A program made the position numbers and the translations under genes. The notes under the pieces are model-generated. The model was not told the DNA's origin, ran no database searches, and was given only the letters and a program-made list of their open reading frames with translations. Positions 17-36,904 of a DNA stretch of 36,904 nt are shown here, one piece after another. The DNA is taken from assembly GCA_027858615.1 (NCBI GenBank), contig JAQICJ010000236.1, forward strand, positions 1 through 36,904, read 5' to 3'. This DNA is from Deltaproteobacteria bacterium. Its GTDB lineage: Bacteria; Myxococcota_A; Polyangia; HGW-17. Each line of letters opens with the position of its first letter. Positions within the stretch are counted from its first letter, which is position 1.

Positions 17-451
17 ATGAAAGTCGTCATCGGAAGCGATCATGGAGCTTATGAACTCAAGGAAAAACTGAAGATCCATCTGGTTGGCAATGAATATGAC
101 GTCGATGATATTGGCACTTTTTCAGGTAAATCAGTAGATTATCCCGACATAGCCAGAGATTTGTGTGCTGAAGTACTGCAAAACGAAGGTTCAATGGGTC
201 TTCTGATGTGTGGAACTGGATTGGGAATGTCTATTGCTGCCAATAAAGTTCCTGGAATCAGAGCTGCTCTTTGTTCAGAATCATACAGTGCCACCAAATC
301 CAGACAACATAACAATGCCAATGTGCTGTGTCTCGGTGGCAGAACAACAGGGTATGAACTGGCTCAGCATATAGTCGACACCTTTCTTGACACCGAGTTT
401 GAGGGAGGCCGTCATCTGAGAAGGATCAACAAAATCGAATCTTCGCAATGA
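17..451 (+). CDS. rpiB: Ribose-5-phosphate isomerase B (RpiB/LacAB family)
   Basis: Protein MKVVIGSDHGAYELKEKLK...GSMGLLMCGTGLGMSIAANKVPGIRAAL...NNANVLCLGGR, with classic RpiB motifs; AGAGGAAGA Shine-Dalgarno upstream. Confidence 0.95.
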   Translation: MKVVIGSDHGAYELKEKLKIHLVGNEYDVDDIGTFSGKSVDYPDIARDLCAEVLQNEGSMGLLMCGTGLGMSIAANKVPGIRAALCSESYSATKSRQHNNANVLCLGGRTTGYELAQHIVDTFLDTEFEGGRHLRRINKIESSQ

Positions 452-1596
452 GTAAGGCACAACGGGAATTAATTAGTTCCCGTTTCAGATCAGGAAAGAA
501 TATCAGAGTGCAAAACCAATCCAGGCATGAAAATTTCATGCGTGAAGCCTTCAAATTAGCTGAAAAAGGTCTGGGTCGTACTGCTCCTAATCCTCCTGTG
601 GGAGCTGTTATAGTTAAAAACAACAAAATTATAGGTAGAGGGTGGCATCAAGGAGCTGGTTTGCCCCACGCCGAGATTAAAGCCATCAAAGATGCCGGAA
701 TTGAAGCAAAAGGAGCTTCAATTTATGTAACTTTGGAACCATGCAATCATTTCGGCAAAACTCCTCCCTGTTCCAAGGCCATTAAAAATGCTGGACTCAT
801 CAATGTTTATTTTTCCGTCAGGGATCCTCATCAGAAAGCAGGTGGAGGAGGAGCTTTTCTCAGAAATGCCGGGCTGAAGGTCGAGGGAAATATCCTTCTG
901 GAAGAGGGAGAGGAAATGATAAAAGGTTTTCTTGCCCGTATCCGGAAAAATCGACCTCATGTACTTTTGAAACTGGCTCTTACCCTGGATGGGAAAATTG
1001 CCGATCACACTGGAGAAAGCCGCTATATTTCCTCCTCCGGTTCTCGAAAACTTGTTCATGAATGGCGAAATTTTGCAGATGGAGTCATGGTGGGGGGCAA
1101 TACTTTTGCCAGTGATAATCCAAGGCTTAATTGCCGCTTGCCCCAGGGAAAAGATCCGTTAAGATTTATCCTTGATGCCAAGTTGAAACATTTCAATCTC
1201 CATGCCAATGTTTTTAAAAATGGAGAAGGACAGATTTATTTTGTTGTTTCCGATAAGTTGGAAATATCAGAAAAAGAAATTTTGCCGGCAAAATTAATCA
1301 AAAGTCCGGTTCGACCTGATGGTTATTTTGATCTGCATTTTGTATTCAATAAACTGGCTGAACTCGGTTTAAACCGGGTTATGGTTGAAGGTGGTGGCAA
1401 ATTGGCAGCCTCCTTAATTGAAGAGCAGATTGTTGATGAAATTGCACTTTTTTATGCACCGGTGTTTATGCTTGACAATGCAGCCGTCAATGGGTTTGGT
1501 TCAAAAAAATCATATCTGGTGAAAGATATGAAACGTCTTTCCAGTTATACTTGCAGCAGGATCGGTGATGATCTGCTCCTGCAAGGAAAGTTTTAA
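448..1596 (+). CDS. ribD: Bifunctional diaminohydroxyphosphoribosylaminopyrimidine deaminase / 5-amino-6-(5-phosphoribosylamino)uracil reductase RibD (start uncertain: ATG 448, GTG 508 or ATG 538)
   Basis: Deaminase motifs PHAE and PCNHFGKTPPC; reductase motifs LKLALTLDGKIAD and RVMVEGGGKLAASL. ATGA overlap with rpiB at 448, but roughly 30 non-conserved N-terminal residues cover two inverted repeats. Confidence 0.93.
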   Translation: MSKAQRELISSRFRSGKNIRVQNQSRHENFMREAFKLAEKGLGRTAPNPPVGAVIVKNNKIIGRGWHQGAGLPHAEIKAIKDAGIEAKGASIYVTLEPCNHFGKTPPCSKAIKNAGLINVYFSVRDPHQKAGGGGAFLRNAGLKVEGNILLEEGEEMIKGFLARIRKNRPHVLLKLALTLDGKIADHTGESRYISSSGSRKLVHEWRNFADGVMVGGNTFASDNPRLNCRLPQGKDPLRFILDAKLKHFNLHANVFKNGEGQIYFVVSDKLEISEKEILPAKLIKSPVRPDGYFDLHFVFNKLAELGLNRVMVEGGGKLAASLIEEQIVDEIALFYAPVFMLDNAAVNGFGSKKSYLVKDMKRLSSYTCSRIGDDLLLQGKF

Positions 1597-1604
1597 CAAT
1601 TAAT

Positions 1605-2213
1605 ATGTTTACAGGTATTATTGAAGAAGTTGGAATTCTCAAAGAAACGAGACCAGAAGCGCGATCCTTGAAGGTAGTTGTGCAATCCAAACTTCCTCTG
1701 GACGAAATCAAAATTGGAGACAGCATTTGTGTTGAAGGGATGTGTTTGTCCTGTGTCGGCAAAGATCCCACCAACAAAACTTTTACTGTTGATGCAGTGG
1801 GAGAAACAGTGAAACGTACCACCCTTTCCACTTGGCATAAAGGTCGCAAATTGAATTTGGAAAGGGCTTTGCCGGCAACAGGGCGTTTTGACGGCCATTT
1901 TGTTTCCGGCCATGTTGATTGTCAGGGCAGGGTGGCCAGAATTGTCAACCAGGGACGGCAATTCAATCTGGCTGTTAACTTTCCCGCAGAATACCGGAAA
2001 TTTATTGCCCCCAAGGGTTCTATCACTGTCAATGGTGTTTCCCTTACAGTGGCAGAGATAACCGGTTGCAGATTTACGGTGGCAGTTATCCCCCTCACTG
2101 TCAGGGAAACAACTTTACAATATCTCAGACCGGGGGAGCCGGTAAATATTGAAGTAGATCTTATAGCCAGATATATAGCTAATTTTTTGAGTAATAACCT
2201 TGAAACGAGGTAA
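1605..2213 (+). CDS. ribE: Riboflavin synthase alpha subunit
   Basis: MFTGIIEEVG start, duplicated lumazine-binding domains, GHFVSGHVDCQG and NGVSLTVAEI motifs. Confidence 0.95.
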   Translation: MFTGIIEEVGILKETRPEARSLKVVVQSKLPLDEIKIGDSICVEGMCLSCVGKDPTNKTFTVDAVGETVKRTTLSTWHKGRKLNLERALPATGRFDGHFVSGHVDCQGRVARIVNQGRQFNLAVNFPAEYRKFIAPKGSITVNGVSLTVAEITGCRFTVAVIPLTVRETTLQYLRPGEPVNIEVDLIARYIANFLSNNLETR

Positions 2214-2216
2214 ATA

Positions 2217-3365
2217 ATGTTTTTCAGTGAAAATGAACAGGAAGCCATTTTGCGAGTTGAAAAGGCAATAAAAGAAATTAAAGCTGGAAGGATGGTCATC
2301 CTTACGGATGATGAAGATCGGGAAAATGAAGGTGATCTGGTTCTGGCAGCTGAAAAAGTTACGCCTGAAGCTGTAAATTTTATGGCCAAATATGGTCGCG
2401 GTTTGATTTGTCTCACTCTCATGCCCGATAGAATTGAACAATTGGGTCTTAAAATGATGGTAGACGATAATTCATCCCGTTTTAACACAGCCTTTACCGT
2501 TTCCATAGAAGCTCGCAAAGGAGTTTCCACCGGAATCAGTGCGGCTGACAGGGCTAAAACCATTAAAACAGCTGTTGCCAAAGAGGCGACTTCTGACGAT
2601 TTGATTTCCCCCGGACATATTTTTCCATTGAAAGCCCAAAGAGGAGGGGTTCTGGTGAGAGTGGGACAGACTGAGGGCAGTGTGGATCTGGCACGACTTG
2701 CCGGTCTTTTCCCTGCAGGAGTTATTTGTGAAGTGATGAATGAAGACGGAACCATGGCCAGAAGAGATGATTTGGAAAAGTTCTGCCAGGAACACGAACT
2801 GGCCATATTATCGGTGAATGATCTTATTGTTTACCGGTTGAACCATGAATATCTGGTCAAAGAAAAGATCCATCGCAGATTTCCTTTTGAAATATCCGGT
2901 GAAACCGTTGAAATGGATGTAAGGATATTCACTTCACCTGTAAATGAAAGAGAATTGATGGCTATTTCACTGGGTGAAATTGAAGAAAAAGAGCCAACTC
3001 TGGTTCGAATGCACCGAGGTTGCCATATTTCAGACCTTTTTAGGATTGGACGTTGTAATTGCGGACAAGTGCTGCAGCGTTCCCTTGAAATGATAAAAGC
3101 CGCCGGCAAAGGGATTATTGTATACATTGACGATGGGACTTTCAGTCTGAGTGAATGCATGAATAAGCATATCATTGAACCTCAGGATGAAGATGTTCTT
3201 AACACCAAAAAACATAATTTCGGTTTGGGTGCTCAGGTACTGAAGGAACTTGGGGTGGAAAAATTGAAATTGATCACCGAACATCAGTATGAATTAGCCG
3301 GAATCAAAGCTTACGGTCTGGAAATTGTCGACAGGGTCAGCCCAATCAAAGGAGCCGGTACTTGA
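2217..3365 (+). CDS. ribB: 3,4-dihydroxy-2-butanone-4-phosphate synthase fused to a degenerate GTP cyclohydrolase II-like domain (RibBA/RibBX type)
   Basis: N-terminal RibB motifs DDEDRENEGDLV, SPGHIFPL, GVLVRVGQTEGSVDL. C-terminal RibA-like domain keeps the C-x10-C-x-C zinc site (CHISDLFRIGRCNC) but lacks the EGRG, RDYG and TNNP motifs. Confidence 0.92.
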   Translation: MFFSENEQEAILRVEKAIKEIKAGRMVILTDDEDRENEGDLVLAAEKVTPEAVNFMAKYGRGLICLTLMPDRIEQLGLKMMVDDNSSRFNTAFTVSIEARKGVSTGISAADRAKTIKTAVAKEATSDDLISPGHIFPLKAQRGGVLVRVGQTEGSVDLARLAGLFPAGVICEVMNEDGTMARRDDLEKFCQEHELAILSVNDLIVYRLNHEYLVKEKIHRRFPFEISGETVEMDVRIFTSPVNERELMAISLGEIEEKEPTLVRMHRGCHISDLFRIGRCNCGQVLQRSLEMIKAAGKGIIVYIDDGTFSLSECMNKHIIEPQDEDVLNTKKHNFGLGAQVLKELGVEKLKLITEHQYELAGIKAYGLEIVDRVSPIKGAGT

Positions 3366-5188
3366 TGACAATCTATAACTGGCGGAAGTATATTCGTGCT
3401 TCAACTAAGGATTGTGAAGAAATTTTCAGGGAAATTACAGACGGCAGCAAGGTCTTTATCGGAACCGGAGCGGGAGAGCCTGCTTATTTGGTGGATCAAC
3501 TACTGCCCCTGGTGGAGAAAAAAGGTCTTCATCTTATTTTTGGCTGGTCTTTTCGTGAAGTCCCCCTTCTGAGTTCCGATTATTACCCCAAACCTTCATA
3601 TTATTTTCTGACCAGTAAACAGCGTCAATCTTTTTTGGAAGGCAAGGCCGATTACATTCCCGGACAACCTGCTCAAATAACAGAGTCTTTCAAACACGAC
3701 AAAGCACTGGATGTTGTTTTTATTCAGGTGGGAGTTCCTGACAGTCATGGATATTTCAGCCTGGGGGTTTCAGTAGATATCACCAGAGCGGCTATTGAAG
3801 GTGCAAAATTAGTGGTGGCACAGATTAATCAATTCATGCCCAGAACCCACGGTGATTCATTTCTTCATTTTCGCGACATAGATTATTTTGTAAAACATTC
3901 CGAACCGGTTGTCGAATTCGAGCCTCCCGAACTGTCTCTTGAAGTTGCAGAAAGTATCGGTCGCCATATCAGTTATCTGATTCCAGACAGAGCCACTATC
4001 CAGATGGGAATAGGGCCGGCACCCTGGAATGCTGTAAAGCAGAGTTTCCTGAAAAAAGATATTGGAGTCCATTCTTTTGTAATTTCGGACTGGTTGATGC
4101 ATTTGATCAATGAAGGGGTAGTTACCAACAGATTCAAAGAAGTAAACAGAGGCAAGGTTGTGGCAAGTTTTGCCATCGGCACCAGAATGTTTTATGAATT
4201 CCTTGATGATTCTCCGGTTGTGGAAATGAAAACTGCAGAATATGTGTCTTCCAGTAAAATCATTCGCCAGCATTCCCGATTTATTTCCATCAATACACCT
4301 CAAAAACTTGATCTTTCCGGTCAGGTTTGTGCGGGTCATGACGAGAGAGGGTTTTATTCTGATATTGCCGGCATGGACGAATTTGCCAGTGTAATCAGTA
4401 GGTTTCCCGGAGGGAATTCTATTTTGGCTTTCTCCTCTGTGGACAAGGATGGTGTTTCCAATATTTTGCCGTTTTTCAAAGACGGCGAAGGTATTGTTTT
4501 AAAAAGAAATAATATTGATTATGTTCTTACTGAATACGGTTCGATCAATTTGGCCGGAAAAACATTGACCCAAAGAGCTTTGGGGTTGATTCACATTGCT
4601 CATCCTGATTATAGAAAAGAACTTTACAATCAGGTTGTCAATAAAATTCATTTTCCAGTTCTCAACCCTGTTTTTCTTGATTACAAACCAGAAATTATTT
4701 ATCGCCATCAACTGGACAATGGGAAAAATATCACTATCAAGCAGGCTTTGCCCACGGATCTGGAAGACATCAGAAGAATTTTTCATTCTTTCTCCCAGCG
4801 GGAAAAAATGTTGCGATTTTTCAGTTCAGGGAAAAATATTGGCAAATATCTGTACAAGTCTTTTGAAAAGGAAAATTTCCATATTCTGGTTGCTTTTATC
4901 AAATTAGACGGCAATGAGGAGGCGGTTGGAATGGCTGAATTTTCAAAATCCGGCAAGGAAGCGCAAATTGCTTTTGCAGTTAAAAATACACAGCGCCGCA
5001 GGGGAATCGGCAAAAAATTACTGTCCGCCTGCCTCAAACTGGCTCAAAAAGAAAATATACAAACCTTGAAAGCTCAGGTTCTGGTGCAAAATCGCAAGAT
5101 GGTCAATTTTTTTGAAACAGATTCCAATCCCTGGCAGAAAAGTGACGAGGGCAGGATCATACAATTCAGTCTCGATTTTTCAGACTGA
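3365..5188 (+). CDS. Acetyl-CoA hydrolase/CoA-transferase family protein with C-terminal GNAT acetyltransferase domain
   Basis: GTGAGEP near the N-terminus, GIGPAPWNAV, DLSGQVCAG, LTEYGSINLAGKTLTQRA, then GNAT signature FAVKNTQRRRGIGKKLLSACLKLA. ATG at 3365 overlaps the ribB stop. Confidence 0.88.
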   Translation: MTIYNWRKYIRASTKDCEEIFREITDGSKVFIGTGAGEPAYLVDQLLPLVEKKGLHLIFGWSFREVPLLSSDYYPKPSYYFLTSKQRQSFLEGKADYIPGQPAQITESFKHDKALDVVFIQVGVPDSHGYFSLGVSVDITRAAIEGAKLVVAQINQFMPRTHGDSFLHFRDIDYFVKHSEPVVEFEPPELSLEVAESIGRHISYLIPDRATIQMGIGPAPWNAVKQSFLKKDIGVHSFVISDWLMHLINEGVVTNRFKEVNRGKVVASFAIGTRMFYEFLDDSPVVEMKTAEYVSSSKIIRQHSRFISINTPQKLDLSGQVCAGHDERGFYSDIAGMDEFASVISRFPGGNSILAFSSVDKDGVSNILPFFKDGEGIVLKRNNIDYVLTEYGSINLAGKTLTQRALGLIHIAHPDYRKELYNQVVNKIHFPVLNPVFLDYKPEIIYRHQLDNGKNITIKQALPTDLEDIRRIFHSFSQREKMLRFFSSGKNIGKYLYKSFEKENFHILVAFIKLDGNEEAVGMAEFSKSGKEAQIAFAVKNTQRRRGIGKKLLSACLKLAQKENIQTLKAQVLVQNRKMVNFFETDSNPWQKSDEGRIIQFSLDFSD

Positions 5189-25734: not shown

Positions 25735-28700
25735 CTATATTTCAGGGGTACAGCAGTTGTTGAGGCAGTAATATCCGGGATCACAGCGAGCAGTGGGACC
25801 ACAATTGTCCATACCATTTGGACATTCGTTGGTTATGCAGTGATCAGGTAATTCTTCCAATGTCATGCCGGGACAAACAATGCACAAGTTGGGATCGCAA
25901 GGTTCTCCGCATTCTGTGCTGGGCGTACAGCGGATGCAGATATCCGGATCGTGGAAAGTGTCGACAGTGCAACCAGGTGAAACAGTTTCAGCTGTAAAGA
26001 TGTTGTCACAGACTCCGTCAACACAGATAGTGCAACAACCCCAGCAGTCACATCCCACTGGCACGTAGGGTTCGCAAAATTGGATACACTCGGCTGGGTT
26101 ATAATGGGGATTGCTTTCATCGTAACAATCGGTGGGAGGATTATCGATACAATATTGATCGTTATTACCGATAAGACAGCATGGATCGAGTTGGCAGCCA
26201 TCATCACCGGCACCACTGTTGCCATCGATAAAACAGTCGTGGTAACCATAAATATCGTTAGGATTATCTCCGGGGATATCGGTTTGGAATTGGCCTTCGT
26301 TGTCATCGGAAGACGAGATACAGGTGGGATCATCGCCATCAATAAGACCATCGCCGTTATTGTCGATGCAGTCGCTGCATTCGGTGCCTCCGTCAGTGCA
26401 ATCGGTAGCCGATACGGTGAGTACTCCCGAAAGAGTGTGATCGTAGGAATCGTTGCCGGCACTGTCGCAATTGCGCCAGGTGAGACCGTCATCCATGGAA
26501 AATCTGTAGGTGTAGTCATAAACACCACCCTCGGGGGTCATGGTGCCAACATATTCATCATAGTCAGTGGCATCGCCGCTGTAGGTGGCATCTATCCAAG
26601 TCCAGGAACTGTCGGGAATTGAATGGCGGGTGCCATAGCCCAACTGACCTGCCAAATCAGTTCCTTGTCCGGCGCTGTCGGTAACTCCTGATTCATAAAC
26701 CTGACCATAGATTTGATCTGTTGACTGGCCAATTTCTATAACCTGTTGCAGGGGACCTGCCAGAATACAGGATTCAACCAGACAGGGTTCATTAAATAGA
26801 CCGGGAGTGCCATAGTCCATTCCGTTATATTGAGAAGGACGGGAAGAACACCAGGATAGTCTCAAATCGTTAAGAATATCGGGACTGAGATCGAGGGCTC
26901 CCGATGACAGGGAGAGAGAATGTCCCGATTGATGTCTCCAGGAGGCATCCCAGGTTACTTGATCGATTAAAATCGGGGTAGCATCGGCACTTTCAATTAT
27001 AATGGTGCCGTTTTCAGAAAGAATGGGCATGGTTGCAAAGAGAATATCTATATTGACATCACCATTGGAAGCTGTTTCATCATTGGGGCCTACAGTAAAG
27101 GAAACTCCGGGCCCTGCCAACATAGTTGGCGAATCCGGAATGGGATAACTGACAGAATCAACGGTGAGGATGGAGCCATTGATCAAAATAGTGGCATCTG
27201 TGGGATTGAATATTTCGAAGTATTGACCGTCAGCTACCAGAGCCAGTTCAGGATTGATCATGATTTCGGAAATTGCCAGGGAGCCGTTGGCAGGGTATTG
27301 GGCTTCCAGACAGGTGTCCGGAGCATTGGGATCTTCCAGGTAGCCACTGTCGCATTTGCAGACGGCATTTTGTGTTTGGGAATTATCCCAGCAGGAGGAA
27401 TTAGGTTGGCAGATGCCTGCATCGAAGATGCCATCACAATTGTTGTCCAGGGAATCGCAGATTTCCAAGGCATCGGGATTGATATCAGGATTTGAGTCGT
27501 TACAATCATCGGAATTGTTGACATAACCCGAAGGAGCGACACAGGCTTCCACCAAGTTGGCGGCATCACCATATCCGTCTCCGTCTGCATCGTAATAGAA
27601 CTCACTCAAGGCGAAGCCGTTGTCGATTACTCCGTTACAATCGTCATCAATGCCATTGCATTCTTCAGTGGCACCGGGGTTAACCAAGTTGTTTTCATCG
27701 TTGCAATCGCCGTAGTCGGTAGCAAAACCGGCTGGCAAAGAGCAAGTTTGGGTGGCATCGGCTGTAAGCCCGTAACCGTCACCATCGTTGTCGCGATAGT
27801 AAGATGTGAGTACACCCTCATCTATTTGACTGTTGCAATTGTTGTCTTTTCCGTCGCAAACTTCGGTATTACCCGGATATTTCTGGTTGTCTCCATCATC
27901 ACAATCACCATTGTCAGTAGCAAAACCGGCCGGAAGAGAACAGGCCTGGGTGGCGTCGGTGGTAAGTCCGTAACCGTCGCCATCGCTGTCGCGATAGTAA
28001 GTTATGAGTACACCCTCATCTATTTGACTGTCGCAATTGTTGTCTTTGCCATCGCAAACCTCGGTATTACCCGGATATTTCTGGTTGTCTCCATCATCAC
28101 AGTCGCCATTGTCAGTAGCAAAACCGGCCGGGAGAGAACAAGCTTCGGAAGTATCGGTAGAAAGTCCGTAATCATCGTCATCGTTGTCGCGATAGTAGGT
28201 TGTGAGTACGCCCTCATCAATTTGACCGTCGCAATTGTTGTCTTTGCTATCGCAGACCTCGGGGTTGCCGGGGAATTTTTCGTTGTCACTGTCATCACAG
28301 TCGCCGATGTTGATCGCAAAACCGGTCGGAAGAGAACAAGCTTGGGTGGCGTCGGTGGTGAGTCCGTAACCGTCACTATCGCTGTCGCGATAATAGGTAT
28401 TGAGCACGCCTTCGTCGGTTTGACCGTCGCAATTGTCATCGAGTCCGTTGCAGGTTTCTGGGGCAGGTAGAACCTCTCCGCTGCAGGAACTCCAACTGCC
28501 GGTGCTGCAAGTTTGTGTGCCTGATGTGCAGATGCCGACACCTTCGGTCCCAGCAGGACCGGGATAGCAGGAGCGTTCCAGATTGTCGTCAATCAGCCCA
28601 TTGCAGTCTTCATCAAGGTTATTGCAAGTTTCTGGTTCCGGAACAACCTGGTTTTGGCAATTGCTCCATTGACCGTCGGTACAAACACTGGTTCCTGTAC

Positions 28701-29274
28701 TGCAACTTCCCTGGCAATCAAAAGTTCCGGAGCCCGGTGAGGTTTCAGTGCAGCCTCCGTCGCCACTGTAACAAACTTCAGTCAACTCTTCGTCGATCTG
28801 TTCGTCGCAATTATTGTCTTTGCCGTCGCAGACTTCAGGATTGCCGGGGAATTTGTCACTATCGTCATCGTCGCAATCGCCGTCGTTTTCGGCAAAGCCC
28901 TCGGGAAGAGCGCAGGCTTCGGTGGCATCGCTGGTGATACCGTAGCCGTCACCATCGTTGTCGCGATAGTAGGTGTTGGCGGCAAGACCTTCATCGATTT
29001 CACCGTCGCAATCGTTGTCGAGATTGTCGCAGCTTTCTTCGGTTTCTTCATAATTTGCTATGCTTGTGTAATCCGGTTCACTCCAGATGAATTCTCCCTC
29101 GGCATTGGTTGTACAAATCTTAACCTGTCCGGTGCAGACACCTGTGGTTTTGGAAGCCAGTGGCGCTTCGCCTTCACAAGTTTGGTTGTTTGTATTGGTG
29201 CTGTCATCATCGCAGGCAGTGATGGAAAAAGAAAAGATAATGAAGAAGGAAAGTAGCAAGAATTTGTTAGACAT
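25735..29274 (-). CDS. Giant lipoprotein: six MopE-like putative metal-binding repeats, Cys-rich modules, lamin-tail-like domain, Cys-rich C-terminus
   Basis: Lipobox ITAC; repeats YYRDxDGDGYG...DCDDxD..K.PGN.EVCDGKDNNCD.QIDEG; SLAISEIMINP...GQYFEIFNPTDATILINGSILTV (LTD-like). ATG at 29274 starts MSNKFLLLSFFIIFSFSITAC. Confidence 0.88.
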   Translation of the reverse strand: MSNKFLLLSFFIIFSFSITACDDDSTNTNNQTCEGEAPLASKTTGVCTGQVKICTTNAEGEFIWSEPDYTSIANYEETEESCDNLDNDCDGEIDEGLAANTYYRDNDGDGYGITSDATEACALPEGFAENDGDCDDDDSDKFPGNPEVCDGKDNNCDEQIDEELTEVCYSGDGGCTETSPGSGTFDCQGSCSTGTSVCTDGQWSNCQNQVVPEPETCNNLDEDCNGLIDDNLERSCYPGPAGTEGVGICTSGTQTCSTGSWSSCSGEVLPAPETCNGLDDNCDGQTDEGVLNTYYRDSDSDGYGLTTDATQACSLPTGFAINIGDCDDSDNEKFPGNPEVCDSKDNNCDGQIDEGVLTTYYRDNDDDDYGLSTDTSEACSLPAGFATDNGDCDDGDNQKYPGNTEVCDGKDNNCDSQIDEGVLITYYRDSDGDGYGLTTDATQACSLPAGFATDNGDCDDGDNQKYPGNTEVCDGKDNNCNSQIDEGVLTSYYRDNDGDGYGLTADATQTCSLPAGFATDYGDCNDENNLVNPGATEECNGIDDDCNGVIDNGFALSEFYYDADGDGYGDAANLVEACVAPSGYVNNSDDCNDSNPDINPDALEICDSLDNNCDGIFDAGICQPNSSCWDNSQTQNAVCKCDSGYLEDPNAPDTCLEAQYPANGSLAISEIMINPELALVADGQYFEIFNPTDATILINGSILTVDSVSYPIPDSPTMLAGPGVSFTVGPNDETASNGDVNIDILFATMPILSENGTIIIESADATPILIDQVTWDASWRHQSGHSLSLSSGALDLSPDILNDLRLSWCSSRPSQYNGMDYGTPGLFNEPCLVESCILAGPLQQVIEIGQSTDQIYGQVYESGVTDSAGQGTDLAGQLGYGTRHSIPDSSWTWIDATYSGDATDYDEYVGTMTPEGGVYDYTYRFSMDDGLTWRNCDSAGNDSYDHTLSGVLTVSATDCTDGGTECSDCIDNNGDGLIDGDDPTCISSSDDNEGQFQTDIPGDNPNDIYGYHDCFIDGNSGAGDDGCQLDPCCLIGNNDQYCIDNPPTDCYDESNPHYNPAECIQFCEPYVPVGCDCWGCCTICVDGVCDNIFTAETVSPGCTVDTFHDPDICIRCTPSTECGEPCDPNLCIVCPGMTLEELPDHCITNECPNGMDNCGPTARCDPGYYCLNNCCTPEI
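27791..28450. repeat. Tandem 198-bp (66 aa) coding repeats in the MopE-like lipoprotein
   Basis: The marker tcgcgata recurs at 27791, 27989, 28187 and 28385, exactly 198 bp apart; further diverged copies lie either side. Confidence 0.85.
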
Positions 29275-29297
29275 GAAAATCACCATTCCATTTGAAT

Positions 29298-29318
29298 TAG
29301 TTCCCATCCCGGGAACTA
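29298..29318. repeat. Inverted repeat TAGTTCCC-ATCCC-GGGAACTA, resembling both ends of the 20170-20350 element joined
   Basis: Perfect 8-bp arms 29298-29305 and 29311-29318; AGTTCCCATCCC is identical to the left end of copy A. Confidence 0.6.
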
Positions 29319-29769: not shown

Positions 29770-30324
29770 ATGCTTGAATTTAGGTTTCATGGCCGAGGTG
29801 GTCAAGGTTCGGTAACTTCAGCTGAGTTGTTGGCAGTTACTGCAGTGGCTGATGGTAAATTTGCCCAGGCTTTTCCAAGTTTTGGACCGGAAAGACGTGG
29901 AGCACCACTGGAGGCATATGCCAGAGTAAGTGACGAGAAAATCAGAACAAGAAGCAAGGTGTACAAGCCTGAAGTTGTATTAGTTCTGGATTACTCATTA
30001 CTGGCCATCACAGACGTAACCAAAGGGCTCAAAAAAGACGGTCTTCTGATTATATCCACTAATCAGGACGTCGAACAAGTCAGAGAAGAAACCGGTTGGC
30101 AAGGCAGATTAGCCATTGTCGACGGCATCAAAATAGCAATGAAACACATCAAAAGGCCTATCAACAACACTGTTATGCTGGGTGCTCTCATCAAAGCCAG
30201 TAAATGTGTCACCATGAAAAACATGGAAGAGGCTGTACAAAATCGCTTCGGAAGAATTGCAAAAATTAATCAGAATGCAATGGAAGAAGCTTTTGATGTG
30301 GTTACAATCTCGGAGGGCAAATAA
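29770..30324 (+). CDS. porC: Pyruvate:ferredoxin oxidoreductase, gamma subunit
   Basis: MLEFRFHGRGGQGSVTSAELLAVTAVADGKFAQAFPSFGPERRGAPLEAYARVSD, with AGGAAGGAG ribosome-binding site. Confidence 0.93.
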   Translation: MLEFRFHGRGGQGSVTSAELLAVTAVADGKFAQAFPSFGPERRGAPLEAYARVSDEKIRTRSKVYKPEVVLVLDYSLLAITDVTKGLKKDGLLIISTNQDVEQVREETGWQGRLAIVDGIKIAMKHIKRPINNTVMLGALIKASKCVTMKNMEEAVQNRFGRIAKINQNAMEEAFDVVTISEGK

Positions 30325-30620
30325 TGACCAAGAAAAAAGATCCTCTCAAATTAACCTGGAAAGAAATCCCTTTGGGGTTTGTTCACAGTGATTACATGTC
30401 CAGTCTCAAAAACCATACAGGTTCCTGGCGTTCGGAAAGACCTTTGTGGGATGAAGAACAGTGCATCAAATGTGGAGTTTGTGCCATGTTCTGCCCCGAA
30501 GCCTGTATCAAAGAAGATGAAAATGGCTATTTCCATGCAGACCTTGATTATTGCAAGGGTTGTGGAGTATGTGCGCAGGAATGCTGGACTGGATGCATAA
30601 CCATGAAAGCGGAGGAATAA
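30324..30620 (+). CDS. porD: Pyruvate:ferredoxin oxidoreductase, delta (2x[4Fe-4S]) subunit
   Basis: CIKCGVCAMFCPEAC and CKGCGVCAQECWTGC; GSWRSERPLWDEEQC typical of the delta subunit. Confidence 0.92.
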   Translation: MTKKKDPLKLTWKEIPLGFVHSDYMSSLKNHTGSWRSERPLWDEEQCIKCGVCAMFCPEACIKEDENGYFHADLDYCKGCGVCAQECWTGCITMKAEE

Positions 30621-30623
30621 TAT

Positions 30624-31796
30624 ATGGGTAAAAGAAAAGGAATAGAAAGTTCAATAGCTTTGGCTGATGCGGCTGCCATGTGCAGAGTAGATGGTATTTC
30701 CGCTTATCCGATTACTCCCCAGACACACATTGTCGAGCACCTTTCAGAATGGGTTAACGACGGCAAACTCGATGCAGAATTTGTCCCTGTTGATTCTGAA
30801 CACAGTGCCATGAGTGCTGCTTGCGGTTTAAGCTCTGTCGGAGCCCGCACCTTCACAGCTACCAGTTCCCAAGGCCTGGCTCTGATGCATGAGATACTTT
30901 TCATAGCCTCATCCATGAGATTTCCAATGGTAATGGCAGTTGCCAATCGTGCTCTCAGCGCTCCCATCAGTATCTGGAATGATCATTCCGATATCATGGC
31001 AGAACGAGACATCGGCTGGATTCAGTTATTTGCCGAAAACGGCCAGGAATGTTTTGATTTGACTCCCCTTTGTTTCAGGGTTTCCGAAGACAAAAGAGTA
31101 GTTCTTCCTTCCCTGTTGAATTTCGACGGGTTTATTGTCAGTCACATGATTGAACCAATCGAATATTGGGATCAGGAACAATTCGACGCATTTTTGCCTC
31201 CCTTTGAGCCTCAAATCAGACTGGATGTCAAAAATCCCACCACCATGGGTGTTGTCGGGGTTCCTGAAATCTATTATGAAACAAAAATGGTTCATCATGA
31301 TGCTCTCAGAAAAGCAAAAGCAGTTGTTAAAGAAGGCTTTGCCGAGCTCGAAAAAACAGTGGGCCGCAAATATGAAGTAGTTGAAAAATACAAAGCTGAC
31401 GATGCTGAAGTTGCCTTGACAATACTCGGTTCCCTGGCTGAAACAGCCATGACCGCTGTTGATAATCTGCGCAAGAAAGGACACAAAGTGGGGCTGGTCA
31501 GGCCGCGCCTCTGGAGACCTTTCCCCGATGAAGAATTCATCGAAGCTGTCAGCAACATTCCTGTTCTGGGAGTAGCTGACCGTGCCTATACTTTCGGGGC
31601 TGCCCATCATCCGGTTGCATCCGAAGTCAAATCAGTTCTGTTCAACGAAGAAAAACGCCCCAAAGTTCTTGAGTTTGTATTGGGAATCGGTGGTCGTGAC
31701 GTTAAAGTTGAAGAGTTCGAAGAAATGTTTATGAAAATGATCAAAGTCAAAGACGGCGCCAAGCCATTTGGCATCGAATATGTGGGAGTGAGGTAA
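30624..31796 (+). CDS. porA: Pyruvate:ferredoxin oxidoreductase, alpha subunit
   Basis: YPITPQTHIVEHLSEWV, VDSEHSAMSAACGLSSVGARTFTATSSQGLALMHE, ANRALSAPISIWNDHSD. Confidence 0.94.
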   Translation: MGKRKGIESSIALADAAAMCRVDGISAYPITPQTHIVEHLSEWVNDGKLDAEFVPVDSEHSAMSAACGLSSVGARTFTATSSQGLALMHEILFIASSMRFPMVMAVANRALSAPISIWNDHSDIMAERDIGWIQLFAENGQECFDLTPLCFRVSEDKRVVLPSLLNFDGFIVSHMIEPIEYWDQEQFDAFLPPFEPQIRLDVKNPTTMGVVGVPEIYYETKMVHHDALRKAKAVVKEGFAELEKTVGRKYEVVEKYKADDAEVALTILGSLAETAMTAVDNLRKKGHKVGLVRPRLWRPFPDEEFIEAVSNIPVLGVADRAYTFGAAHHPVASEVKSVLFNEEKRPKVLEFVLGIGGRDVKVEEFEEMFMKMIKVKDGAKPFGIEYVGVR

Positions 31797-31799
31797 ATA

Positions 31800-32738
31800 A
31801 TGGAATATTTAAACGTATATGCTTCCAAACTTATCCCTGAACGTGAACTTTTTGCTTCCGGACACAAAGCCTGTCAAGGTTGTGCTCCTGCATTGGCTTT
31901 GAGGTATCTGCTCAAAGCAGCAGGACCCAATACTATTGTCTGCAATGCTACCGGTTGTATGGAAATCATCTCATCAGCCTATCCTGATATCTCCTGGGGA
32001 GTTCCCTGGATACATGTTGCTTTTGAAAATGCTGCTGCTGTTGCTTCCGGGGTTGAAGCCGGAATTAAAGCACTTCAAAGGAAAGGCAAAATTTCCAAAG
32101 GCAAAGTCAACATCATTGCTATTGGTGGTGATGGAGCAACCTTTGATATCGGAATGGGACCTCTCTCCGGCCTGCTCGAAAGAGGACACGATGTTCTTTA
32201 TCTGTGTTACGACAACGAAGCCTACATGAATACCGGTATTCAAAGAAGTTCCGGTACTCCCAAATATGCTTCAACTACAACTTCTCCAGCCGGAGATGTT
32301 ATTCCCGGTCAGCAGACAGTTAAAAAAGATCTGGCACAGATTGCTATTGCCCATCAGGTATCTTATGTGGCAACAGCCAGCACATCTTATCCTGTAGATT
32401 TTATTGAGAAAGTCAAAAAGGCACTGGCAACAGATGGAGCCAAGCTCATCCATATTTTTGCACCTTGTCCAACCGGATGGCGTGCAAAACCTAAAGATAT
32501 CATTAAATTGGGACGTTTAGCAGTTCAGACTGGTCTTTTCCCTATTTATGAATATTGCAATGGTCGTTACAAGATGACTTTTGATCTGCCTTTCCTCAAA
32601 TCGATCAAGTACTATCTCAAGATTCAAGGCCGCTATCGTCATCTCACCGAAGAAATGATCAAAGAGCTCGACGAAGATCTCAAGCAACGCTATCGCTGGC
32701 TCGAAACACTGGCTCGAGAGACCAAGGAGGCCAAATAA
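31800..32738 (+). CDS. porB: Pyruvate:ferredoxin oxidoreductase, beta (TPP-binding) subunit
   Basis: SGHKACQGCAPALALRYLLKAAGPNTIVCNATGCMEI, IGGDGATFDIGMGPLSGLLERGHDVLYLCYDNEAYMNTGIQRSSGTP. Confidence 0.94.
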   Translation: MEYLNVYASKLIPERELFASGHKACQGCAPALALRYLLKAAGPNTIVCNATGCMEIISSAYPDISWGVPWIHVAFENAAAVASGVEAGIKALQRKGKISKGKVNIIAIGGDGATFDIGMGPLSGLLERGHDVLYLCYDNEAYMNTGIQRSSGTPKYASTTTSPAGDVIPGQQTVKKDLAQIAIAHQVSYVATASTSYPVDFIEKVKKALATDGAKLIHIFAPCPTGWRAKPKDIIKLGRLAVQTGLFPIYEYCNGRYKMTFDLPFLKSIKYYLKIQGRYRHLTEEMIKELDEDLKQRYRWLETLARETKEAK

Positions 32739-32740
32739 CT

Positions 32741-33214
32741 ATGGATATGCAAAAAGTAGATGCCATAATCGAAAAATATAACAAGGATGAAACCGCACTG
32801 CTTGCAGTATTACAGGACATTCAGGCCGAAAAGAACTATTTGCCCAGGGAAGCCATGGAAAGGGTAGCCGAAATAATGGAAGTACCTTTTTCCAGAGTTT
32901 CATCACTGGCAACTTTTTTCTCTTCCTTCAGTCTTGAACCTCGCGGTGAGCATATTGTCACCATCTGTATGGGAACAGCCTGTCACGTCAGAGGAGCACC
33001 ACTGGTACTCAAAGAGGTTGAACGTGAACTGGGTATCGCCAACGGTGAAACCACTTCTGATCTCAAATTTACTATTGAAACAGTTAATTGCGTAGGTGCC
33101 TGTGCTTTAGGACCTCTGGTAATTATCGACGAAAATTATCATGGTAATATCAGTACTTCGGAAGTGGAAGAAATGCTGGAACAGTATCAAAATCCTTCAA
33201 AGCAAGAAGGGTAG
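32741..33214 (+). CDS. NuoE/HydC-like [2Fe-2S] thioredoxin-fold subunit
   Basis: [44 protein letters not shown]...[14 protein letters not shown]. Confidence 0.92.
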
Positions 33215-33224
33215 GGAGTGTAAT

Positions 33225-35132
33225 ATGGTAAAAGTAAATTCTCCTAAAGCCTTGGAAGAAATTATACAAAAAAAGAAAAAAGAAAGTGGCAAAGAAGGCA
33301 CCTATATTTCAATCTGTGGTGGTACAGGCTGTATTGCCAGTGGAGGGAATGGTGTTCTTGAAGCTTTTCAGGAAGTTATAGCCGATGATCCTGATGTCAA
33401 ACTGGTAAGAACCGGTTGCCATGGTTTTTGCGAAAGAGGTCCCCTGGTAGTTATTCAGCCCCAGGGTATTTTGTATCAAAAGGTCAAGCCTGGTGACGCC
33501 GCGGATATATACGAGAAAACAATCAAAAATGGGGAGATTATCAAAAAACATCTCTACCGTGATCAAAAGAAACAAGCTTACGAAAAAGAAGCTGATGTTC
33601 CATTTTACAAGTTTCAAAAACGCATAGTTTTCAAGATGAACGGGCACATTGATCCCGAAAAAATCGATGATTATCTGGCAATGGATGGTTACAGCGCCTT
33701 GTCCAAGGTTTTAACCTCCATGAAACCCGACCAAATTATCGACACTGTCATTAAATCTGGATTGCGTGGCCGAGGCGGCGGTGGTTTTCCTGCTGGAATC
33801 AAATGGAAAAGCACCAAAGCAGCAACTGGTGATAAAAAATATGTTTTGTGCAATGCTGACGAGGGTGATCCAGGAGCATTCATGGATCGTTCCATCATGG
33901 AAGGTAATCCCCACAGCGTAATCGAAGGCATGTTGATTGGCGCCTATGCCATCGGATCAGACGAAGGATATATTTACATCAGAAACGAATATCCCCTTGC
34001 CATCAAACGCCTCAAAGTTGCATTGGAACAGGCCAGGGAATACGGCTTCCTCGGAAAAAATATCCTGGGAACCGATTTCTCCTTTGATATTAAGATAAAT
34101 CGCGGTGGTGGTGCTTTTGTCTGTGGTGAATCTACAGCGCTCATGCTTTCCATCGAAGGCAAGGTCGGACGACCCCGTACCAAATACATCCATACCGCTG
34201 ATTCGGGCTTGTGGGACAAACCAACCAATCTTAACAATGTTGAAACCTGGGCCAATATTCCCCATATCTTCAACAAAGGAGTTGACTGGTTCACATCCAT
34301 TGGCACCGGTGATGTTTCCGAACATCCCTGGGGAGGTTCCAAAGGCACCAAAATCTTCTCTTTGGTTGGTAAAGTCAACAACACAGGCTTGGTTGAAGTA
34401 CCTTTTGGTATAACCCTGCGCGATATTATTTTCAAAATAGGCGGCGGCATTAAAAACTCCAAAAAAGGCCGTAAATTCAAAGCCGTGCAAACTGGCGGCC
34501 CCTCAGGCGGTTGCATACCTGAAAAACATCTTGATGAACCTGTCGATTTTGACGGTCTCACTAAAATGGGCTCAATGATGGGTTCAGGCGGCATGATTGT
34601 CATGGACGATCATACCTGCTTGGTCGAAGTTGCCCGTTATTTTGTTGATTTTCTCAAAGATGAATCCTGTGGCAAATGTACACCCTGTCGTGAAGGTTTA
34701 CGCAGGATGTCACAAATTCTCAACCGCATAGTTGTTGGTGAAGGCAAAGAAGGCGATATTGAACTTCTCGAAAAATTGGCCTCGGCCATGGAAATATCTT
34801 CTCTCTGCGCTCTTGGTCAGACAGCAGCTTATCCTGTTTTGTCCACTATCAAATACTTCCGTGAAGAATATGAAAGACACATTAAAGACGGCTATTGTGA
34901 TGGAAAACAATGTACCGAACTTATCAGGTATAATATTGATGAAGACGCCTGTACCGGTTGTTCCATCTGCGCCAAAAAGTGCCCCACCAAAGCTATTTCA
35001 GGGGAACTCAAAAAGACCTATCGAATCGATCAGAGTGAATGTGTTCGTTGTGGTGTCTGCTTTAACGTGTGTAATTTCAATGCTGTTGAAATACTCAGCG
35101 GTTCGGAAATAAAAGAAAAGATGGGTGAATAA
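33225..35132 (+). CDS. HydB/HndC-like NAD(P)-binding flavo-iron-sulfur subunit (NuoF core with N-terminal [2Fe-2S] and C-terminal 2x[4Fe-4S] domains)
   Basis: N-terminal CGGTGC...[34 protein letters not shown]-terminal [16 protein letters not shown] and [19 protein letters not shown] 33225 follows a GGGAG ribosome-binding site. Confidence 0.93.
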
Positions 35133-35133
35133 T

Positions 35134-35856
35134 ATGGAAATTAAACTCAATGGAAAAAAAGTAAAAGCTAACGAAGGCGAATACATTCTTGACGTTGCCC
35201 AACGCGAGAACATCTATATTCCTACTCTTTGTGATCATCCGGCTGTAAAACCCACAGGGGCCTGCAGGATGTGTCTGGTGGAAGCCGGCGTGGAAGGCAG
35301 GAAGAAAAAAATTGTCACTTCTTGTGCTTTTCACGTTAAGCAAGGACTTGAGGTTAATACAGATACTCCTACAATCAAAGAAGCCAGAAAAGTGGTTATG
35401 GATCTGTTGTTGGCTCGAGCTCCCAATTCAGAAAGTCTCAAAGAGATGGCCCAAAAACTGGATATGGAGACGGTTTCAACTTTTGAACCAGTAGAAAATG
35501 CCGGCGATTGTATTCTTTGTGGACTTTGCACCAGAGTATGTGATGAGGTGGTCGGAGCCAATGCCATCAGTTTCAATTCCCGTGGAGCTGACATGGATGT
35601 AGGCGGTCCATTGCTGGATGTTCCACAAGATTGTATAGGATGCGGTGCCTGTGCCTATGTTTGCCCTACAGATTGCATAGGACTCAAAGACGATGGCGAA
35701 AAGCGCTATCTGGAAAAATGGGACAGAGAGCTGCCCCTGATGAAATGCCGAGAATGTGGCTGGCCTTTCATGCCCGCATTTCAAGCTATTAAGTTCAATG
35801 AATCCACCAAAGTTCCCAAAGACTTCTTTAAGCTTTGTCCCGACTGCAGAAACTAA
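35134..35856 (+). CDS. HydA-N-terminal/HoxU-like iron-sulfur subunit ([2Fe-2S] plus 2x[4Fe-4S]) with C-terminal zinc-ribbon-like CxxC...CxxC
   Basis: IPTLCDHPAVKPTGACRMCLVE, CILCGLCTRVC, CIGCGACAYVCPTDC, tail MKCRECGWPF...LCPDCRN. No H-cluster motifs. Confidence 0.88.
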   Translation: MEIKLNGKKVKANEGEYILDVAQRENIYIPTLCDHPAVKPTGACRMCLVEAGVEGRKKKIVTSCAFHVKQGLEVNTDTPTIKEARKVVMDLLLARAPNSESLKEMAQKLDMETVSTFEPVENAGDCILCGLCTRVCDEVVGANAISFNSRGADMDVGGPLLDVPQDCIGCGACAYVCPTDCIGLKDDGEKRYLEKWDRELPLMKCRECGWPFMPAFQAIKFNESTKVPKDFFKLCPDCRN

Positions 35857-36046: not shown

Positions 36047-36904
36047 TCAATTCACAACCATAAAATAGTGATTGTTAAGTAGTCTGCGACCACCGGTGCT
36101 TAATTCAACATGCCAATTGCCAAGGGTTTTTATGGTACTGAGGTTACTATATTCCATACTTGTCCAGAGAAGATAATCTCCGTTTCCCAATTTCAGTTTT
36201 TTGACATCTTTCTTCAGCAGTGTTTCTCCGTTTCTGCTCCAGATGTGGGTAAAAGTATCACGAGGATACATTGGTGTTTCAAGAATGTTGATACAATAGA
36301 GTTTCTTCTTTTTGAAATCATTCTCGTGGATTTTTCGTACACCGGCAAAGGGGGATTTTTGAAATTGATCAGGAGTAACAGCCGTGATTGCGGTTTGGGA
36401 AATTTTGTAGGGAGCTGCAGGAACAAGAATTTCTGCTTGATGGCAGCCATAACCAATGACGAGTCCAGAGATTATTATCCAGCGTAATTTACCTTTTTTA
36501 AAAATAAGCTTGGGATAGTGCAGGGCAATAAACCCAAAAACACTCAAAAAAGCTGCCAAAGGAAGAATGTATCTGGTTGGAATTGGAATGAACAGAGGAA
36601 GCAGCAGATCAAAACTGGCAAAAAGACAGAGGGTATAATAGGTTGCCCGTAAAATCTTATTCTCCATGAGCCAGTTGTCGAAAATAAGATCCTGGGTGGA
36701 TAAAACAGCCAGAATGCCCAAAAGCAGTGTAAAACCAATATTCAACGAATTGAGAACCGAGGCCTCCCAGAAAAAAGGCAACATGAAGAAATAAAGGGCC
36801 TGGTACATATTTTTCATGATAAAATTGAGTAGAACTTTTGTCCCTCTTTTTTGTTTGCCTGTTTTGTTTTCATAAGCTGCTACCCGGTCAAAGATAATAA
36901 GCAG
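36047..36904 (-). CDS. DUF2914-like membrane protein, N-terminally truncated by the window edge
   Basis: Multiple TM segments, then a C-terminal domain ending HIWSRNGETLLKKDVKKLKLGNGDYLLWTSMEY...GNWHVELSTGGRRLLNNHYFMV. The frame is open from ATG 36817 to the edge (LLIIFDRVAAYENKTGKQKRGTKVLLNFIMKN...). Confidence 0.7.
   Translation of the reverse strand: MLIIFDRVAAYENKTGKQKRGTKVLLNFIMKNMYQALYFFMLPFFWEASVLNSLNIGFTLLLGILAVLSTQDLIFDNWLMENKILRATYYTLCLFASFDLLLPLFIPIPTRYILPLAAFLSVFGFIALHYPKLIFKKGKLRWIIISGLVIGYGCHQAEILVPAAPYKISQTAITAVTPDQFQKSPFAGVRKIHENDFKKKKLYCINILETPMYPRDTFTHIWSRNGETLLKKDVKKLKLGNGDYLLWTSMEYSNLSTIKTLGNWHVELSTGGRRLLNNHYFMVVN

Follow-up and report, generated by a model that had tools for sequence, protein, structure and literature searches.

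Can one enzyme couple the oxidation of pyruvate directly to the reduction of both NAD+ and ferredoxin? The question is raised by seven genes at positions 29770–35856 (plus strand) of a 36,904-nt stretch of DNA (the window: NCBI GenBank assembly GCA_027858615.1, contig JAQICJ010000236.1, positions 1 to 36,904 of the forward strand) from a bacterium labelled Deltaproteobacteria, where the four subunits of a pyruvate:ferredoxin oxidoreductase (POR) are encoded directly ahead of three subunits of the Bfu family, to which the bifurcating HydABC hydrogenases belong. Judging from homology to purified Bfu enzymes, from which complex formation, the electron path, bifurcation and pyruvate as substrate are all inferred, the products of these genes (Por-Bfu) probably form a seven-subunit soluble complex in which pyruvate oxidation would be coupled by bifurcation to the reduction of NAD+ and ferredoxin.

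Organization of the por-bfu operon

The genes porC-porD-porA-porB-bfuC-bfuB-bfuA are one operon, with spacing between genes ranging from a 1-nt overlap to 10 nt, and Pfam and NCBIfam models were concordant for all seven. PorC (29770–30324, 184 amino acids) matched PF01558 with 120 bits and TIGR02175 (PorC_KorC) with 202 bits, above cut-off; PorD (30324–30620, 98 amino acids), which carries two [4Fe-4S] clusters, matched TIGR02179 with 95 bits, above cut-off; PorA (30624–31796, 390 amino acids) contains the 2-oxoacid/thiamine pyrophosphate (TPP) domains (PF01855, 228 bits, and PF17147); and PorB (31800–32738, 312 amino acids) contains the TPP-binding domain PF02775 and the proximal [4Fe-4S] cluster. 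BfuC (32741–33214, 157 amino acids) is HydC/NuoE-like with one [2Fe-2S] cluster, C1 (PF01257, 168 bits), BfuB (33225–35132, 635 amino acids) is HydB-like (PF01512, PF10589, PF00037), and BfuA (35134–35856, 240 amino acids) matched PF13510 and Fer4 models. For bfuB, the ATG at 33225, which is preceded by the ribosome site ggagtg, was preferred to the start at 33141 in the list of open reading frames (ORFs), which overlaps bfuC.

The upstream neighbor, a gene for a MopE-repeat protein, and the downstream neighbor, a convergent minus-strand ORF at 36047–36817 with DUF5924/DUF2914 matches, both lie on the opposite strand. The operon is therefore closed at both ends and includes neither a hydrogenase nor a formate dehydrogenase; searches of the window ORFs with family models detected no hydrogenase, formate dehydrogenase or other catalytic gene downstream of bfuA. 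An original prediction, made from the sequence alone, had described seven genes in tight succession, a HydB-like subunit with an additional N-terminal [2Fe-2S] and C-terminal 2x[4Fe-4S] domains, a last subunit with iron-sulfur wiring and no H-cluster, and no NiFe subunits, and had named a catalytic gene directly downstream as the finding that would count against it. All seven genes were found in place on one strand, both BfuB domains are present (the N-terminal one thioredoxin-like), the 240-residue BfuA has no catalytic domain, the operon holds no hydrogenase subunit gene and the next ORF is convergent. The prediction also spoke of POR "fused in one operon"; the single operon was borne out, and the genes are separate rather than fused.

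Cofactor sites of the Por and Bfu subunits

The four-subunit POR is complete, comprising PorA–D with the TPP site, the proximal cluster of PorB and the two clusters of PorD. The best solved relative of PorA was the alpha subunit of the pyruvate:ferredoxin oxidoreductase (PFOR) 9bt4 (E 1.5e-98), and PorB matched the beta subunit of the same enzyme with E 2.6e-86. PorA residues T31 and R109, which align with those of pyruvate-type enzymes (oxalate oxidoreductase has Arg at the T31 position), were invariant in 24 of 24 Por-Bfu operons, as were C25, C28, C53 and C223 of PorB and the eight cluster cysteines of PorD. The top models for PorA and PorB were those for pyruvate synthase, with scores on the best equivalog models just under the cut-offs.

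BfuC aligned with HydC of 8a6t (E 1.4e-43) and with 7t2r (E 1.1e-40), and its four [2Fe-2S] cysteines were invariant in 35 of 35 sequences. BfuB contains an N-terminal [2Fe-2S] cluster (B5), an FMN/NAD site, a [4Fe-4S] cluster (B1), the B2 ligands and two C-terminal [4Fe-4S] clusters (B3, B4). It aligned over its full length with 9mqx_B (775 bits, E 4.4e-232) and with 7t2r_B of the Acetomicrobium mobile NiFe-Bfu (771 bits, E 9.3e-231), whereas the best match to complex I NuoF, at ~365 bits, was far below those to bifurcating HydB proteins. In the alignment, the B2 ligands C465, H552, C558 and C563 were kept in all full sequences. The B2 ligands of A. mobile are C438, H525, C531 and C536, and the set including the histidine marks bifurcating BfuB; non-bifurcating homologs are without B2–B5 (PMC9304861).

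BfuA contains an N-terminal [2Fe-2S] cluster (A1) and two [4Fe-4S] clusters (A2, A4), the assignment of these cluster names to its motifs being our own. It lacks the His-Cys3 (A3) stretch in the alignment to HydA and also A5, and its twelve A1, A2 and A4 cysteines were invariant in 30 of 30 sequences. Its one full-length match was 9mqx_A (247 amino acids, E 2.7e-44), with which it has in common a C-terminal CxxC...CxxC. By sequence, it is a Type 2 BfuA as defined by Schut et al., with A1, A2 and A4 only and found with extra catalytic subunits (PMC9304861). An AlphaFold model of BfuA had a mean predicted local distance difference test score of 74, falling below 50 at residues 145–168 in the Fe-S region. 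Taken over PorB, PorD, BfuC, BfuB and BfuA, every cluster ligand was invariant wherever the sequence was complete. BfuA homologs of ~660–725 amino acids were also seen (L073, L080, L076, L081, L083, L069), and their long C-terminal part matched neither HydA nor Nfn queries.

Relation to known enzymes

Schut et al. (2022) predicted the kind "Por-Bfu (A–G)", with BfuB in their clades 35, 44 and 45 (Chloroflexi and syntrophic Proteobacteria), and proposed the same coupling (PMC9304861). The window operon is thus a well-supported addition to a predicted kind that is itself not new. As in the Por-Bfu of Dehalococcoides and syntrophs, four Por subunits are clustered with BfuABC, BfuA has only A1, A2 and A4, and BfuB has B1–B5 (PMC9304861); the window differs in belonging to a new lineage, with a genome that appears fermentative and relatives that carry the labels Deltaproteobacteria/Myxococcota, in having a paralogous Vor-Bfu alongside and in a Val at the fifth B2 position. 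In Dehalococcoides mccartyi 195 the por-bfu genes have similar expression levels, which was taken as support for one complex, and Wor-Bfu and Nfn-Bfu were shown to be tightly coupled (PMC9304861). Our literature search found no report of a purified Por-Bfu and no Por-Bfu paper later than PMC9304861.

The characterized Wor-Bfu (BfuABCSL) of A. mobile likewise has a Type 2 BfuA and couples a low-potential donor tightly to NAD+ and ferredoxin (PMC9304861), but its third substrate is an aldehyde, oxidized by a tungsten enzyme rather than by a pyruvate/TPP enzyme. The solved BfuABC-like structure 9mqx (chains A/B/C), which gave both the only full-length BfuA match and the best BfuB match, has no chain that matches PorA or PorB and so is not a Por-Bfu. 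[FeFe] HydABC and NiFe-Bfu (8a6t, 7q4v, 7t2r) have the same BfuBC core, but they possess hydrogenase domains or subunits and the BfuA His-Cys3 cluster, all of which are missing from the window operon. Phenylglyoxylate:NAD+ oxidoreductase, PadEFGHI, is also a 2-oxoacid oxidoreductase linked to NAD+, but it uses a different NADH subunit, PadH, instead of BfuBC. In the window operon, Pad models matched far below cut-off and no PadH-type NADH subunit gene was found.

Conservation of the arrangement in relatives

The arrangement was followed in a class sample of 59 genomes related to that of the window, its own included, and by a BfuA profile search of genome contigs. The identical seven-gene order was found in 21 complete operons, that of the window and 20 others, with PorA down to ~50% identical, and because of this recurrence the arrangement is far beyond chance. 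The synteny without hydrogenase that the original prediction had proposed to look for, and whose lack in relatives it had named as a refutation, is thus conserved. PorA at least 55% identical was present in 19 of the 59 genomes, in 16 of which bfuC directly follows porB, and three are cut off by a contig end or break within porB; all close PorA with a readable downstream side are thus Bfu-linked. Among the 59, this type of porCDAB was never seen intact and on its own. The profile search added ten further named genomes with the identical order, from Dehalococcoidia (L091, L095), Syntrophaceae (L100, L102, L106), SAR324 (L092), Thermodesulfobacteriota (L090) and bacteria labelled Deltaproteobacteria (L093, L097, L099). 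The distance between PorB and BfuC, estimated from alignment ends, differed from zero by no more than ~10 nt in 19 of 23 operons and was ~0–24 nt overall, apart from ~55–65 nt in Syntrophaceae. BfuA was 65% identical in the metagenome-assembled genome (MAG) Deltaproteobacteria bacterium ZodW_Metabat.263 (L155/G062).

More distant PorA (36–42%) occur in different operons that encode a GltD-like flavoprotein. Among them are PorC/PorA/PorB sets (36–41%; L206, L207, L208, L209) that have a GltD-like NAD(P)H oxidoreductase and no Bfu, another arrangement for NAD(P)-linked POR. At two further loci, a different KorA/VorB-like oxidoreductase lies beside a GltD-like flavoprotein, followed by bfuCBA in one (L218, G010:C28, 672–8663) and accompanied by a BfuA-like frame in the other (L167, 3995–9073); these are perhaps another 2-oxoacid-Bfu variant. 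An apparent PorA-PorB-BfuC-BfuB fusion (a 1556-amino-acid ORF, L060) was rejected as bfuB joined with a spurious frame across GC-rich DNA.

A sister operon with a Vor-type enzyme

The same genome (G000) carries a second operon, vorD-vorB-vorA-vorC-bfuC-bfuB-bfuA plus a gene for a ferredoxin-like 4Fe-4S protein resembling the PadI N terminus, at 712–7146 of contig C96 (L013). The putative VorB matched the VorB model with 509 bits, above cut-off. A Vor-Bfu-type enzyme is not mentioned in the main text of Schut et al. (PMC9304861). VorB at least 54% identical was found in 21 class genomes and was Bfu-linked in 16 (the genome itself and 15 relatives). In two of the remaining five, at G051:C198 (L233, 6084–10020) and G049:C436 (L232, 5042–8449), bfuA comes immediately after vorDBAC, bfuC and bfuB are absent and the assembly has no N, so that the proposed adaptor persists with no core beside it; two others lie at contig edges, and G037 has a stand-alone set in a different gene order.

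In G019:C9 (L085, 5445–9654), the vor operon has a second, tandem bfuC-bfuB pair, whose bfuC matches the bfuC of the por operon (L204) without a difference over 127 nt, again with no N in the assembly; from its sequence, this is likely a snapshot of core copying. In G009:C137 (L231, 3164–3420), the tail of a porB lies between vorC and bfuC. A fossil of core transfer was considered, but 10 N in a row after vorC, together with a bfuC start of which 30 nt are repeated, identify the locus as a scaffolding chimera. Breaks within bfuC or bfuB occur in several contigs of the class, which is what near-repeats would be expected to cause.

Histories of the three Bfu subunits

Within one genome, the Por- and Vor-linked copies of BfuB are 66–72% identical and those of BfuA 36–43%. 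BfuB of the window is 69% identical to the Vor-linked BfuB of its own genome versus 60% to a Dehalococcoidia Por-linked BfuB, whereas its BfuA is 42% identical to the Dehalococcoidia Por-linked BfuA versus 36% to its own Vor-linked BfuA. The window BfuB groups with Por- and Vor-linked BfuB, including those of Dehalococcoidia and Syntrophaceae, and apart from FeFe and Nfn types. Trees of BfuA, BfuB and BfuC were built on the same 30 operons, and the numbers of partner changes needed were one for BfuA (support 91/86), five for BfuB and six for BfuC. A single Por clade was rejected for BfuB (approximately unbiased [AU] test, p = 4e-51) and for BfuC (AU p = 4e-4), and holding the Por- and Vor-linked BfuA of family f8 together was also rejected (AU p = 0.002). 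BfuA thus follows the partner, Por or Vor, while BfuB and BfuC follow the lineage.

The simplest reading of these histories is that BfuA looks like an adaptor specific to its partner, and BfuBC like a core that can be exchanged. An adaptor fitted to its partner would in turn be indirect evidence for contact between Por and BfuA, and hence for one complex. Ongoing gene conversion in the window family was considered and rejected: third-position identity of its two bfuB genes was 0.46, near the 0.41 found between genera, so core exchange there is old. Across the class, the BfuBC core may have been copied repeatedly between Por and VorB-type enzymes, each with its own BfuA adaptor, while some Vor plus BfuA sets borrow BfuBC from elsewhere; both oxidations would then be tied to NAD+ and ferredoxin reduction, and Vor-Bfu would be an undescribed member of the Bfu family. 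We put this wider picture forward tentatively, judging the case for it to fall a little short of even.

Pyruvate metabolism in the genome

The genome is a MAG of 3.67 Mb, 93% complete. It encodes an FeFe-Bfu (C50), an Nfn-Bfu (C116), Rnf (C9) and a Kor-type enzyme (C296), alongside separate Vor- and Ior-like enzymes. Genome searches in which the controls matched detected neither pyruvate formate-lyase (PFL) nor the E2 of a 2-oxoacid dehydrogenase such as pyruvate dehydrogenase (PDH), and no other Por or stand-alone PFOR was detected in the genome, leaving Por-Bfu as its sole detected pyruvate-to-acetyl-CoA enzyme. The combination of an FeFe-Bfu hydrogenase and Rnf with no other detected pyruvate oxidizer suggests a fermenter, and the 1:1 output of NADH and reduced ferredoxin proposed for Por-Bfu would equal the substrate ratio of FeFe-Bfu. 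Beside the FeFe-Bfu genes lies a minus-strand gene (L014, G000:C50, 2307–4364) whose product, a probable H2 sensor, combines an [FeFe]-hydrogenase-like domain with a region that resembles a histidine kinase.

Proposed reaction and alternatives

In the proposed scheme, PorCDAB would convert pyruvate and CoA to acetyl-CoA and CO2, and electrons would pass from the Por TPP through the PorB and PorD clusters to A4, A2 and A1 of BfuA and on to the FMN of BfuB, with PorD as the putative exit towards BfuA and BfuA as the adaptor between Por and BfuBC. Having no catalytic domain, a Type 2 BfuA must work with a partner, and the operon offers none but Por. BfuBC (FMN, B1–B5, C1) would then deliver one electron pair to NAD+ and the other through C1, B2, B3 and B4 to ferredoxin (Fd), in a tightly coupled and reversible reaction: 2 pyruvate + 2 CoA + NAD+ + Fd(ox) <-> 2 acetyl-CoA + 2 CO2 + NADH + Fd(red, 2 e-). 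With potentials of ~ -500 mV for pyruvate and ferredoxin and ~ -280 mV for NAD (PMC9304861), our own arithmetic gives ~21 kJ more per pyruvate than ferredoxin reduction alone. This extra energy could pull pyruvate oxidation at several-thousand-fold less favorable concentrations with half of the electrons still saved as ferredoxin, and in reverse it could halve the ferredoxin cost of pyruvate synthesis.

Several observations weigh against this scheme. Pyruvate alone is reducing enough for ferredoxin, and the coupling is not thermodynamically required (PMC9304861). The fifth B2 ligand, C476 in A. mobile and Thr in about two-thirds of the Bfu family, is replaced by Val503 in the window BfuB (the V of RIV); the position varies among C/T/S/V/A in relatives and so cannot be a universally required ligand. 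Support for the split of BfuA by partner is moderate (91/86), and holding the Por- and Vor-linked BfuA of family f1, that of the window, together was not rejected (AU p = 0.215). The absences noted in the genome are provisional, as the MAG is 93% complete. For all Por-Bfu, the enzyme role is so far a prediction.

A single complex passing electrons to NAD+ only, or merely through BfuBC, would be a non-bifurcating NAD-linked pyruvate dehydrogenase resembling PadEFGHI. NAD-linked 2-oxoacid oxidoreductases do exist (Pad models were matched), the class has Bfu-free PorCAB sets with a GltD-like NAD(P)H subunit (G010:C110, G047, G038, G029), and electron transfer from pyruvate to NAD+ alone is strongly exergonic; yet B5, B3, B4 and the B2 His and Cys ligands, which belong to the B2–B5 set missing from non-bifurcating homologs (PMC9304861), are kept in all full Por-linked BfuB, and a 2x[4Fe-4S] ferredoxin entry would be useless for NAD-only transfer, so that we consider such an enzyme quite improbable. 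If the operon instead encoded two separate enzymes, the POR would be of the classical kind that reduces free ferredoxin, and BfuABC would use that ferredoxin with NADH and a third partner encoded elsewhere. This would fit a POR complete with its own PorD ferredoxin subunit and BfuBC cores that are clearly exchangeable between operons. Against such a division stand the strict linkage over very large distances with no intact stand-alone porCDAB in the class sample, the recurrence of the arrangement with Vor, a 2-oxoacid enzyme that is distantly related to Por, a BfuA that tracks its partner and the lack of any known function for a BfuA without a catalytic domain on its own, which together make it very unlikely.

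The direction of the reaction is a separate matter that overlaps with the bifurcating complex itself. For Dehalococcoides and syntrophs, Schut et al. proposed a confurcating pyruvate synthase driven by NADH and reduced ferredoxin (PMC9304861), Bfu reactions are reversible, and this genome encodes both Rnf and FeFe-Bfu; but no Wood-Ljungdahl or other autotrophic context turned up, though none was sought, and the signs of a fermenter described above point the other way, leaving reverse operation somewhat unlikely here. That the main substrate is another 2-oxoacid, such as 2-oxobutyrate or 2-oxoisovalerate, seems highly improbable: PorA-type enzymes can be broad and the PorA and PorB equivalog scores are just under the cut-offs, but the best matches of both subunits are to models of pyruvate synthase and, among structures, to the PFOR 9bt4, T31 and R109 are invariant, and we found no further pyruvate route in this genome, which has distinct Vor-, Kor- and Ior-like enzymes. 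A bifurcating complex that acts on pyruvate stays the preferred reading. In the original prediction, a pyruvate-linked bifurcating complex was offered as a candidate; the synteny, the invariant ligands, the Type 2 BfuA and the lack of hydrogenase agree with it, while the kind had already been predicted (PMC9304861) and complex and bifurcation are drawn from homology.

Other genes in the window

The product of the upstream neighbor of the operon (25735–29307, minus strand) is large and looks secreted; it contains eight metal-binding repeats of the MopE type and weakly matches a lamin-tail domain. At 17–5188 lie rpiB and then the riboflavin genes ribD, riboflavin synthase and ribBA, after which comes a gene (3362–5188) for an acetyl-CoA hydrolase/transferase with a fused GNAT domain.

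Significance

In anaerobic metabolism, pyruvate oxidation is the central branch point; it is usually taught as yielding ferredoxin only (PFOR), formate (PFL) or NADH (PDH). The most interesting addition here is the Vor-Bfu sister together with the discordant histories of BfuA and BfuBC, through which the choice between one complex and two enzymes becomes testable: the paired Por-Bfu and Vor-Bfu operons are a natural swap experiment for the roles of BfuA versus BfuBC, a question open since the family was proposed. If the proposed reaction is true, Por-Bfu as the sole route would fix NADH:ferredoxin at 1:1, the ratio consumed by the FeFe-Bfu hydrogenase of this genome, and calculations of fermentation and H2 yield would change for many uncultured anaerobes.

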